Positions 7,037 through 9,772 of a stretch of 53,727 nucleotides of DNA are shown piece by piece (the stretch's first letter is position 1; every line of letters starts with the position of its first letter). This DNA is from Candidatus Saccharimonadota bacterium (GTDB taxonomy: Bacteria > Patescibacteriota > Saccharimonadia > Saccharimonadales > UBA4665). The notes beneath the pieces were generated by a model. The model was not told the origin of the DNA. It ran no database searches and saw nothing but the letters and a program-made list of their open reading frames with translations. The translations under genes were made by a program, and so were the position numbers. Location: positions 1 through 53,727 of the forward strand of contig DAHWAT010000002.1 of assembly GCA_027327085.1 (NCBI GenBank), read 5' to 3'.

Positions 7037-8059
7037 TTAAAAGTTGGCAGCCCCTAAAAAGGTTAAGGTTTCAGAATAATCGCTAGCTGGAGGTGTTGCA
7101 CTGGAAGTAATAGCCTTGGTAAACGCAGTTGCCGAACCATTGGTAATCGGGTAGGCGCTGCTTATAAATTGTGTCGGAATGGTTGATTCTCCACCAACAA
7201 TACTGCTAGTGCCTGCGTATATCGAATTAATCACAAACGGCCCACCACTAGTTTCGGTAGGATTGCTGGCCTGTACGCCAAATCCTTCGCTTAAAGACGA
7301 TAAATTGCCACTGACAGCGGCAATGGTATGATTTGCAAAAGCACTGTAAAGTCCGCCATACTGACCATAGATATAGATAGCGCCTCCGGAATTAGCGTTA
7401 GTGCTTAAGCCTAAGGATAAGCTGGGGCTAGATACTACACTACCAGGCAGTAAACTGCCCATTGCGATAGTGTTGGGACTAACGCCAAAAGATATAGATG
7501 GTGCTACAGTTGAAGCCGTTGCCGCTGCACTAAAATTGGTATCTGAGAATTTACCGGCTTGGGCATCAACTCTAGCCTCATAAGTTGTTGAATTGGCCAG
7601 GCCTACGATATCGATACCGCTAGAACCGCCCCAGGCACTGTAGGATTGATAGACTGGTGTAGTATTTAAACTACCGTCTGCCTGAAGATAGCTGTAAGTC
7701 GTAAAGTTATTGGTGGAAACTTCTACTGAATAGGTTGAGTTAGATGGATCTTGACTACTATTGATTATAAGCAGTAGCTTATTATAAAAGCTGTTGTTAC
7801 CGTTACTAAGACTGGGAGCAGGCGGCGTATTAAGCTGAGACGCATTGATTGAGCCGTTATTTGATTGGTACGTCGTTGAGTTAGTGGTGCCATTAGCTTG
7901 CTCTCCAAGAGCACCTCTTAGTGAATAAGTAGTTGAACTGGCACTATTGGTACCGGCCGGTCCAAGACCGTAACTATTCAACTGGTAATTAGCACTCGCT
8001 GAAAAGCTAGCAAAAAGACCTAACACTAAACCCGTAATAGCCAGCCCAGACCTCATCAT
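7037..8059 (-). CDS. secreted surface protein, FN3-like middle and WxL-like C-terminal domain
   Basis: Signal peptide; STTYSLRGALGEQANGTTNSTTYQSNNGS; FN3-like TPPAPSLSNGNNSFYNKLLLIINSSQDPSNSTYSVEVS; C-terminus ...TPPASDYSETLTFLGAANF. Confidence 0.7.
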   Translation of the reverse strand: MMRSGLAITGLVLGLFASFSASANYQLNSYGLGPAGTNSASSTTYSLRGALGEQANGTTNSTTYQSNNGSINASQLNTPPAPSLSNGNNSFYNKLLLIINSSQDPSNSTYSVEVSTNNFTTYSYLQADGSLNTTPVYQSYSAWGGSSGIDIVGLANSTTYEARVDAQAGKFSDTNFSAAATASTVAPSISFGVSPNTIAMGSLLPGSVVSSPSLSLGLSTNANSGGAIYIYGQYGGLYSAFANHTIAAVSGNLSSLSEGFGVQASNPTETSGGPFVINSIYAGTSSIVGGESTIPTQFISSAYPITNGSATAFTKAITSSATPPASDYSETLTFLGAANF

Positions 8060-8102
8060 AGTTATATTCTATGTTTTTCAACTTATTTAGACAAATGCGT
8101 GT

Positions 8103-8675
8103 CTAATGCCACCGCCAGGAGTTGAGCAACATGTTAAAAACGGTTTGTAGTGAAGGATCATTAAGCCGATTGGCGCTCAAGCTAACGATCGCCTGATTGT
8201 TGTTATTAACCAAGAAGGCTGACTGATTATAGGTTGACGTATTAATCTGTGTCATCACGTTCACGCTTTGATTATTGACCTGTAAAACAGTATGCCTATA
8301 GGCATTGGGGTGAATTTGACGCTCCTCATAGGCGTTATTATCATTTAAATTACCTCCCGGTATCTGCAGGATTGAAATCGCTAAAAACCACTGCTCGCTA
8401 TTATGATCAATAAAATTATAGTCAGCGATTACCTGTCCAGTAGGTGTTTGAGCAGGATAAGTGCTAAAAACTTTTGGATAAGAAAATGATGCGTAAGTGG
8501 TGTTAAAGCTCACTGGGGTTAAGCTATTGGTAGAACTATTGTCTAGACTAGACGTATTAGGATAGATAATTGTGCCCTGTGCTGGACGATTAATGTACCT
8601 AACAACTAAGACCATAACCAAAACTATAAGGATAGAGGATGCTACAACATATTTGGTCTTGTTTGCGCCTACCAT
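8103..8675 (-). CDS. hypothetical membrane-anchored extracellular protein
   Basis: N-terminal TM (YVVASSILIVLVMVLVVRYI) and ~150 aa ectodomain. Confidence 0.6.
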   Translation of the reverse strand: MVGANKTKYVVASSILIVLVMVLVVRYINRPAQGTIIYPNTSSLDNSSTNSLTPVSFNTTYASFSYPKVFSTYPAQTPTGQVIADYNFIDHNSEQWFLAISILQIPGGNLNDNNAYEERQIHPNAYRHTVLQVNNQSVNVMTQINTSTYNQSAFLVNNNNQAIVSLSANRLNDPSLQTVFNMLLNSWRWH

Positions 8676-8816: not shown

Positions 8817-8877
8817 ATCTTTGGCGAACTAAAATTAGCTAGACCTAAGTCATAGCTAATTGAATGCCTAAACTGGT
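8817..8877. repeat. 61-nt imperfect direct repeat, copy 1, containing a hairpin
   Basis: 52/61 identical by eye to 9639-9699; AATTAGCT (8833-8840)/AGCTAATT (8854-8861) stem. Confidence 0.85.
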
Positions 8878-8945
8878 CAGTAGTCAGTCACTTGGGCAGA
8901 GCCCGCTTTTAAAGGGTTTAATGGAGCTAAGCGAAAAGTTGGGAA
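8874..8945 (-). pseudogene. possible decayed tRNA-Val copy (speculative)
   Basis: Beyond the 61-nt repeat, plus-strand pieces (tggt, cacttg, cccgc..taaa, gagctaa) occur in the same order and approximate spacing as in the intact tRNA-Val at 9696-9772. Confidence 0.3.
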
Positions 8946-8980
8946 AACTGGATTTTGTTTATGTTTACGACAAATTAATT

Positions 8981-9008
8981 GTTATAAAATACATAACTAT
9001 TTTATAAC
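8981..9008. terminator. perfect 10-bp inverted repeat overlapping the antitoxin stop codon
   Basis: gttataaaat (8981-8990) - 8-nt loop - attttataac (8999-9008). Confidence 0.55.
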
Positions 9009-9305
9009 TAAATCTTTATGGCCTTTAGCAAAATCATGCAGAAGCGCGCTCAGCATAGTCTGATATGGTATACCATTTCTAGTTGCTTTAGCTTTGATCA
9101 TTATAAGGTCGGCTTGTTTCACTCTAAGAGTAATCGGCTTAGTCTTGTTTAGATCGAGCTGTCTCTTTGCTGCCTTTTGTATAGCCGCTTTAGACTCTTT
9201 AAAATCTGGGTCACTAACATACGCTCCTCTTTTAAGTGCGTCTTCTATAGCTTGCTCTTCCTCGTCTAATACTAGATTGGCAAATGGATCTTTAGGTATG
9301 TTCAT
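8997..9305 (-). CDS. CopG/BrnA-type antitoxin
   Basis: KPITLRVKQADLIMIKAKATRNGIPYQTMLSALLHDFAKG is ribbon-helix-helix CopG-antitoxin-like; ATGA overlap with the upstream toxin gene. Confidence 0.8.
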   Translation of the reverse strand: MNIPKDPFANLVLDEEEQAIEDALKRGAYVSDPDFKESKAAIQKAAKRQLDLNKTKPITLRVKQADLIMIKAKATRNGIPYQTMLSALLHDFAKGHKDLVIK

Positions 9306-9589
9306 GATTTTTCTCCTTTCAAATATAACTTAGTATATCTTCTACTTGGGTAAATGGTCTTTAAAAATATCTCTTGCTTACTCATATTTATGACATATGG
9401 CACTACATAAACATATTCTTCTATTTTAATTAAATAGACCCTTTGGTTAGATCTTTTTGAATCAGGATGCTTTAGGTCATCTAAGACTTGATCTTCATGT
9501 ATAAACTTTAAAACATCTTCAAAGCCTATACCTCTGGTAGATTTAAGTAATTCGTTCTTTTCATCACTGAATCGATATACTAAATCCAT
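9302..9589 (-). CDS. BrnT-like/RelE-fold toxin
   Basis: MDLVYRFSDEKNELLKSTRGIGFEDVLKFIHEDQVLDDLKHPDSKRSNQRVYLIKIEEYVYVVPYVINMSKQEIFLKTIYPSRRYTKLYL. Track start at 9757 lies inside tRNA-Val and is rejected; start at ATG 9589 supported by the promoter position. Confidence 0.78.
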   Translation of the reverse strand: MDLVYRFSDEKNELLKSTRGIGFEDVLKFIHEDQVLDDLKHPDSKRSNQRVYLIKIEEYVYVVPYVINMSKQEIFLKTIYPSRRYTKLYLKGEKS

Positions 9590-9595
9590 ACAATT

Positions 9596-9625
9596 ATAAT
9601 ACATTAGTCGTACATCTTTTGTCAA
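9596..9625 (-). promoter_or_regulatory. TA operon promoter
   Basis: Minus strand TTGACA (9620-9625), 18 nt, TATTAT (9596-9601), 6 nt before ATG 9589. Confidence 0.6.
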
Positions 9626-9638
9626 TACTTTTTTATTA

Positions 9639-9699
9639 ATCTTTGACAAACTAAAATCAGCTAGATCTAAGTCATAGCTGATTGGATGTCTGTACTGGT
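9639..9699. repeat. 61-nt imperfect direct repeat, copy 2, abutting the tRNA-Val 3' end
   Basis: AATCAGCT (9655-9662)/AGCTGATT (9676-9683) stem; on the minus strand the stem is followed by TTTAGTTTG, so it may be the tRNA-Val terminator. Confidence 0.85.
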
Positions 9700-9772
9700 G
9701 GGTGATGAGGGACTTGAACCCCCGACACCCGCGGTGTAAACGCGGTGCTCTAGCCAACTGAGCTAATCACCC
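9696..9772 (-). tRNA. tRNA-Val (anticodon UAC), CCA encoded
   Basis: GGGTGATTAGCTCAGTTGGCTAGAGCACCGCGTTTACACCGCGGGTGTCGGGGGTTCAAGTCCCTCATCACCCACCA folds as a cloverleaf; anticodon loop TTTACAC. Confidence 0.97.

Follow-up and report, generated by a model that had tools for sequence, protein, structure and literature searches.

In the stretch of 53,727 nucleotides analysed here (the window), an 822-bp segment next to a tRNA-Val gene is probably a non-autonomous, site-specifically integrated cassette that carries one type II toxin–antitoxin (TA) pair as its cargo and had the 3' end of the tRNA as its target. Homologs of the TA pair were found at the ends of different tRNA genes in related genomes, a pattern that, on the sequence comparisons, suggests mobile cassettes of very small size that would dock at tRNA ends and carry no recombinase. 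The genome of the window (G000) is metagenome-assembled, with 50 contigs, a total length of 636 kb and a completeness of about 82%.

The cassette beside tRNA-Val

The features of the segment, all on the minus strand, are as follows.

8817–8877, minus strand: copy 1 of the direct repeat, the distal junction; R1 model 92.5 bits.
8833–8861, minus strand: hairpin in copy 1, stem AATTAGCTA/TAGCTAATT, identified by folding and with compensated changes.
8878–8894, minus strand: possible degenerate tRNA-Val 3' end before copy 1, CAAGTGACTGACTACTG; 10/17 matches, p 0.51 alone.
8997–9305, minus strand: antitoxin of 102 aa, CopG/ribbon-helix-helix type; PF12441 at 8.3e-5, below the curated cut-off.
9302–9589, minus strand: toxin of 95 aa, BrnT-like, with a predicted RelE superfamily fold; PF04365 in homologs, AlphaFold (AF2), Foldseek.
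9596–9625, minus strand: promoter-like site of the TA pair, TTGACA-18-TATTAT, near-consensus (11/12 match).
9639–9699, minus strand: copy 2 of the direct repeat, the proximal junction, made of the discriminator and CCA of tRNA-Val and a 57-nt trailer; R1 model 96.6 bits.
9655–9683, minus strand: terminator-like hairpin in copy 2, 9-bp stem AATCAGCTA/TAGCTGATT, fold z −3.1, with compensated changes.
9696–9772, minus strand: tRNA-Val (TAC), the target, intact; ARAGORN, Rfam tRNA 67.6 bits.

The two copies of the 61-nt repeat have the same orientation and a spacing of 822, and are identical at 52 of 61 positions (85%); the nine differences are eight transitions and one transversion. Recomputation of the pair thus agreed with a preliminary description of this DNA in coordinates, orientation, identity and the predominance of transitions. 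When the repeat was compared by BLAST with the 636-kb genome, the second copy was recovered with E 2.6e-14 and no third copy was seen; a 17-nt match on contig C9, considered as a further copy, had an E-value of 0.28 and was dismissed as chance. A search for extra copies, proposed in the preliminary description, yielded only these two in G000 and none after other tRNA genes. Within the window, the core pattern of the repeat had two matches compared to 0.02 expected.

Copy 2 contains the discriminator A and the CCA of tRNA-Val (9699–9696); the earlier claim that this copy exactly meets the CCA end was borne out by the call of tRNA-Val (TAC) at 9696–9772 on the minus strand. The cassette spans 822 bp between this CCA (9696) and the ACCA in copy 1 (8874–8877). 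There is no integrase gene inside it, as had been noted before. At the far end, the solid part of a displaced tRNA 3' fragment in G000 consists of the ACCA and the trailer repeat only. Similarity extends past copy 1 toward the T-arm side (8878–8894) and is not significant alone; the idea that a complete tRNA, now decayed, preceded copy 1 found no support. The genes to the left of copy 1 do not adjoin tRNA-Val in relatives.

Both copies hold a hairpin, a point missed in the first reading, with a 9-bp stem and a 3-bp outer stem. Read on the minus strand, each copy starts with the sequence of the tRNA CCA side and continues into the hairpin. Four of the nine differences between the copies make up two fully compensated base pairs, while no pair is broken (p 0.006 under random transitions). 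Such a pattern argues that base pairing was maintained in both copies after their divergence. A terminator scan called neither repeat hairpin (its limit on loop length is our guess at the cause), and the terminator role is therefore one that we infer: judged by sequence, the hairpin of copy 2 probably ends transcription of tRNA-Val and that of copy 1 transcription of the TA pair. Searches by genome BLAST, in Rfam and with a covariance model spoke against the hairpin being a widespread repeat or an Rfam RNA.

The segment had been described as holding a complete TA operon with its own promoter, and this description held. The two genes, of which the toxin gene is the first, overlap by ATGA and are preceded by TTGACA-18-TATTAT (9625–9596); the TTGACA region is conserved upstream of the TA homologs. 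The toxin of the window alone matches BrnT weakly, below the Pfam cut-off, but 12 of 16 members of its family match BrnT (PF04365; best 1.2e-7). Its AlphaFold model had a pLDDT of 93.6, and the top Foldseek matches of the model were RelE, HigB and YoeB (probability 0.9–1.0, best E 4e-3). By its homologs and its predicted fold, the toxin is assigned to the BrnT family with a RelE-like fold. All 11 antitoxin homologs match CopG_antitoxin (PF12441; best 2e-6). Homologs of the toxin are distributed patchily, in 17 of 392 genomes of the order. The TA pair was not found in known phages, and its matches in plasmids are distant (<60% identity).

Occupied and empty tRNA-Val loci in relatives

A genome of a different genus of the same family (G017) carries the TA pair and the hairpin at the same tRNA-Val locus, in a neighbourhood of tRNA-Val, tRNA-Leu and GlcD that is shared with G000. 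Here the module is situated 3.6 kb downstream of the tRNA-Val of that genome. Between the two genomes, the DNA of the TA pair and hairpin together is about 80% identical, coding and noncoding parts alike (80–81% for toxin, antitoxin and promoter), compared to 64–65% for neighbouring core genes (GlcD and an ABC substrate-binding gene). The higher conservation of the module indicates that it moved horizontally. The presence of the same module at the same locus in an independent assembly, together with the mid-contig position of the segment and its intact operons in G000, makes an assembly artefact very improbable, even for a metagenome-assembled genome in 50 contigs and about 82% complete.

The unit in G017 is 829 bp long and runs from the junction of CCA with GTTTAGACATCC to GGGGTTCCATCCATCTCCCTCACAACCCACCA, a tRNA-Val-like 3' end (p 0.005). 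It starts with CCACCAGTTTAGACATCC and a hairpin of the same kind, with a T6 tract immediately 3' of the stem. This proximal hairpin is the only one in the unit; the distal tRNA-Val-like CCA end has none. Three insertions are stacked at the locus, of 3.6 kb, 0.83 kb (TA) and about 0.75 kb. The 3.6-kb block between tRNA-Val and the TA cassette (L024:6637–10261) has a GC content of about 0.55 compared to 0.49 in its flanks, and contains a P-loop-like fragment, ORFs that are either short or broken, and a candidate immunity gene with a match to Imm26 that stays under the cut-off (E 0.007); no integrase was seen in the block.

The proximal position of the hairpin in G017 bears on the origin of copy 1. 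If the hairpin is the left end of a cassette, as it looks to be there, copy 1 could be the proximal hairpin end of an older cassette whose cargo has decayed, and the TA cassette would have been added later between it and tRNA-Val. We regard such tandem accretion, a variant that overlaps with our preferred explanation, as quite possible; the three stacked insertions in G017 and the cassette arrays present in G026 and G180 (below) are in line with it. On the other hand, no second cargo is recognisable between 8676 and 8816, and a single insertion into a hairpin-bearing site would look the same.

In a genome from the genus of G017 (G063), the TA module is absent while both flanks are conserved, which makes the locus an empty site. 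The order in G063 is GlcD, tRNA-Leu, tRNA-Val and then directly a membrane-protein gene and DacA. The part of the membrane-protein gene shared with G017 begins about 96 bp past tRNA-Val in G063 and 5.2 kb past it in G017. A terminator-like hairpin lies right after tRNA-Val in G063. At about 20 further Saccharibacteria tRNA-Val loci both the TA pair and the hairpin are absent. The trailers of these syntenic genes are all different, and we rejected the idea that the hairpin is the ancestral trailer of tRNA-Val. A covariance model of the hairpin, run on 392 genomes, found the two copies in G000 and the copy in G017 at E <= 1e-12. In the other 390 genomes no match was better than 7e-4; among the next matches were one in an apparent ribosomal protein L4 gene and others resembling ordinary terminators. 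Since the hairpin is convincing in G000 and G017 alone, it belongs to the TA module and not to tRNA-Val.

The preliminary description had predicted an empty site in which a single repeat copy, without the TA pair, would follow tRNA-Val. Such a site was not found; the empty sites have no repeat at all, and the genomes compared include none near enough to G000 to offer a clean empty site for its own locus. Two outcomes had been set against an insertion by the same description, and neither was seen: the 61-nt sequence does not follow other tRNA genes, and the arrangement is not common to relatives.

These loci also bear on the explanation that no site-specific insertion took place, i.e., that the TA pair is old at the locus and the repeats stem from duplication of a terminator whose copies were kept alike by selection or gene conversion. 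The base pairing preserved in both copies and the presence of TA at the same locus in G017 would fit it. But it does not agree with a module much more conserved than the neighbouring genes, with the lack of TA at the tRNA-Val locus of G063 and at about 20 more such loci, or with the recurrence of TA at other tRNA ends; this explanation is already disfavoured, and we consider it unlikely.

Cassettes at the ends of other tRNA genes

The recurrence was observed in several genomes. In G096, a TA homolog starts about 30–50 nt after tRNA-Arg(TCG), and its far side bears a tRNA-Arg 3' fragment with a score unmatched by any shuffle; a displaced tRNA 3' fragment is thus significant in both G017 and G096. 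The TA pair of G140 is flanked on both sides by tRNA-Gln 3' fragments, and that of G102 is adjoined by one. The order in G008 is an intact tRNA-Gln, a small-ORF cassette, a fragment and TA. In G026, four tRNA-Gln-like 3' fragments separate small cassettes arrayed beside this TA pair, with a 93-aa ORF, a nucleotidyltransferase, MazE-like/Fic and GNAT as contents. Overall, a match of at least 19/29 to a library of tRNA ends was found for 9 of 31 TA flanks compared to 16 of 300 random windows. Several TA relatives show no tRNA end nearby.

Two other kinds of neighbourhood were noticed. Similar coiled-coil-like ORFs of 86–94 aa adjoin TA in G008 (L102:4358–4642) and G025 (L025:4276–4536). In G056 (L061), a TA homolog is located between nearly identical 160-nt direct repeats unrelated to tRNA (−247..−87 upstream and +389..+549 downstream of TA), which resemble a duplicated gene start; judging by these flanks, this is a second way of insertion.

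Exchange of cassettes could be followed in two sister species of one genus, G180 and G124, with flanks 92% identical. A ParE-type TA cassette beside tRNA-Gln(TTG) is common to both (98% identical). It is preceded by a cassette with a 76-aa ORF in G180 and by an SDR gene in G124, and followed in G180 by a unit of 2.8 kb, absent from G124, that carries a 540-aa gene. The switch points coincide with the acceptor/CCA of tRNA-Gln fragments.

Taken together, the comparisons of genomes showed horizontal spread of the module, its recurrence at tRNA ends and an empty site in a relative. The earlier suggestion of a minimal tRNA-associated insertion gained support from the G017 locus, the high conservation of the module, the empty site of G063 and the recurrences at tRNA-Arg and tRNA-Gln. 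Its alternative, a decayed integrative element, was not favoured: homologous units recur at 822 and 829 bp with the same gene pair and no integrase remnants, which gives decay no advantage over an element that has always been small.

Small noncoding units, roughly 130–260 nt long, were also observed immediately downstream of tRNA genes (Leu, Gly, Val, Gln). Their layout is tRNA-CCA, a terminator-like hairpin, an antisense copy of the T-arm, a body and a sense copy of the tRNA 3' end; the antisense copy lies mostly 42–50 nt after CCA (p <= 0.02 in 10 of 10). The units are located at L073:4586–4845 and 7977–8237, L125:1276–1500 and L084:10376–10516, and in L080, L007, L021, L018, L114 and L174. 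At loci not chosen for it, 7 of 108 tRNAs had such a unit downstream and 0 upstream, and 3 were counted in reverse orientations. In L125, the fragment is followed by an exact repeat of the 63 nt downstream of CCA. The body of one unit (L174:9812–9924) is a dispersed repeat, 74–86% identical over 60–130 nt in several Saccharibacteria genomes; the similar stretches (L129, L128/L141, L142, L098, L134, L111, L079, L080, L126) are often near tRNA genes. Five sources with small noncoding units had no match in Rfam, and a group I intron was rejected as their identity on this ground.

Recombinase and route of integration

G000 has a single tyrosine recombinase (PF00589), a 304-aa Xer-like protein encoded beside an Ndk-like ORF and on a different contig from the cassette. 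Most cassette-bearing genomes likewise have one Xer-type tyrosine recombinase. Large serine recombinases are present in some of them; serine recombinases were rejected as the common enzyme, being missing from several cassette-bearing genomes. In G000, a resolvase-family PF00239 protein at C23:5458–5910, within a 505-aa open frame, is by its sequence probably a large serine recombinase, which suggests an integrated element at another site in the genome. Use of tRNA genes as targets is known for tyrosine integrases only (PMC4383910). No parent ICE or IME with the same att was seen in the loci examined.

We propose that the ends of the cassette, which carry the discriminator-CCA of the target and a hairpin, would be recognised by a recombinase acting in trans. 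In assemblies that are incomplete (82% for G000), candidates may be the single Xer-type enzyme of the cell or the tyrosine integrase of a passing phage, plasmid or other element. The cassette, which we infer to have a circular form, would recombine at the CCA end of the tRNA and leave the tRNA intact or rebuilt. The displaced end with its downstream hairpin would stay behind as copy 1, unless copy 1 derives from the proximal end of an earlier cassette of this family that has since decayed. Two hairpin terminators would make the cassette self-contained in transcription, and its loss would presumably be penalised by the TA pair (addiction).

Transposition by an enzyme that recognises hairpins (IS200/IS605-like, or acting on a site folded from a single strand, like attC of integrons) instead of a tRNA-targeting integrase is, in our estimate, quite improbable. 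The ends form imperfect palindromes in which changes are compensated, and the arrays of cassette and site resemble integrons, as this mechanism would have it; still, insertion at tRNA CCA ends fits a tyrosine integrase that targets tRNA genes, the tRNA ends of other TA cassettes lack this hairpin, and no integron integrase was identified, the one PF00589 protein of G000 being of Xer type.

A broader and rather doubtful generalisation is that Saccharibacteria possess a cassette system analogous to integrons. In this system many tRNA genes (Val, Gln, Arg, probably others) would provide recombination sites at their 3' ends, and a recombinase in trans, possibly the one Xer-type enzyme of the cell, would insert, stack and exchange sub-kilobase cassettes with a TA pair, a single enzyme or no gene. 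No account of such cassettes in Saccharibacteria was found in the literature searched, with subscription papers mostly outside its reach. Such units escape island finders whose criteria include an integrase and a minimum of 2 kb. If the units are common, they would be a route by which reduced symbiotic genomes such as Saccharibacteria acquire and swap single accessory operons, TA included. They also raise a testable question, namely, which recombinase moves a cargo that brings none.

Comparison with known systems

Type II TA systems of the BrnT/BrnA and BrnT/CopG kinds likewise have a RelE-fold toxin, a ribbon-helix-helix antitoxin and overlapping genes with the toxin first. The toxin of the window differs in falling under the Pfam cut-off, as a divergent Saccharibacteria branch. 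Integron cassettes carry one or two genes with a palindromic recombination site, form arrays and include TA cargo, all features seen here. However, the sites in our case are tRNA ends with CCA; there is no IntI among the PF00589 proteins of G000 (one, Xer-like), and inspection showed no attC R-box consensus.

Islands targeted to tRNA or tmRNA genes are defined in Islander by an integrase inside and a length of 2–200 kb (PMC4383910). As in these islands, the tRNA gene is intact and the cargo is downstream; the same-orientation duplication at the far side may correspond to their displaced tRNA 3' end, its solid part in G000 being the ACCA and the trailer repeat. In contrast to them, the cassette is only 0.8 kb (822 bp) long with no integrase, which makes it invisible to the Islander method, and its duplicated block is mostly trailer and not tRNA.

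CIMEs, cis-mobilizable elements with attL and attR and no recombinase, are defined as decayed remnants of ICEs or IMEs (PMC5704250). The cassette is similarly flanked by att sites and has no genes for recombination or transfer, with tandem accretion at one target as a further parallel. Unlike CIMEs, it is one operon that recurs at a constant size, and the loci examined yielded no parent element sharing its att. Without their defining integrase, size or parent element, the cassette would work like tRNA-targeted islands and CIMEs, which are the nearest known kinds.
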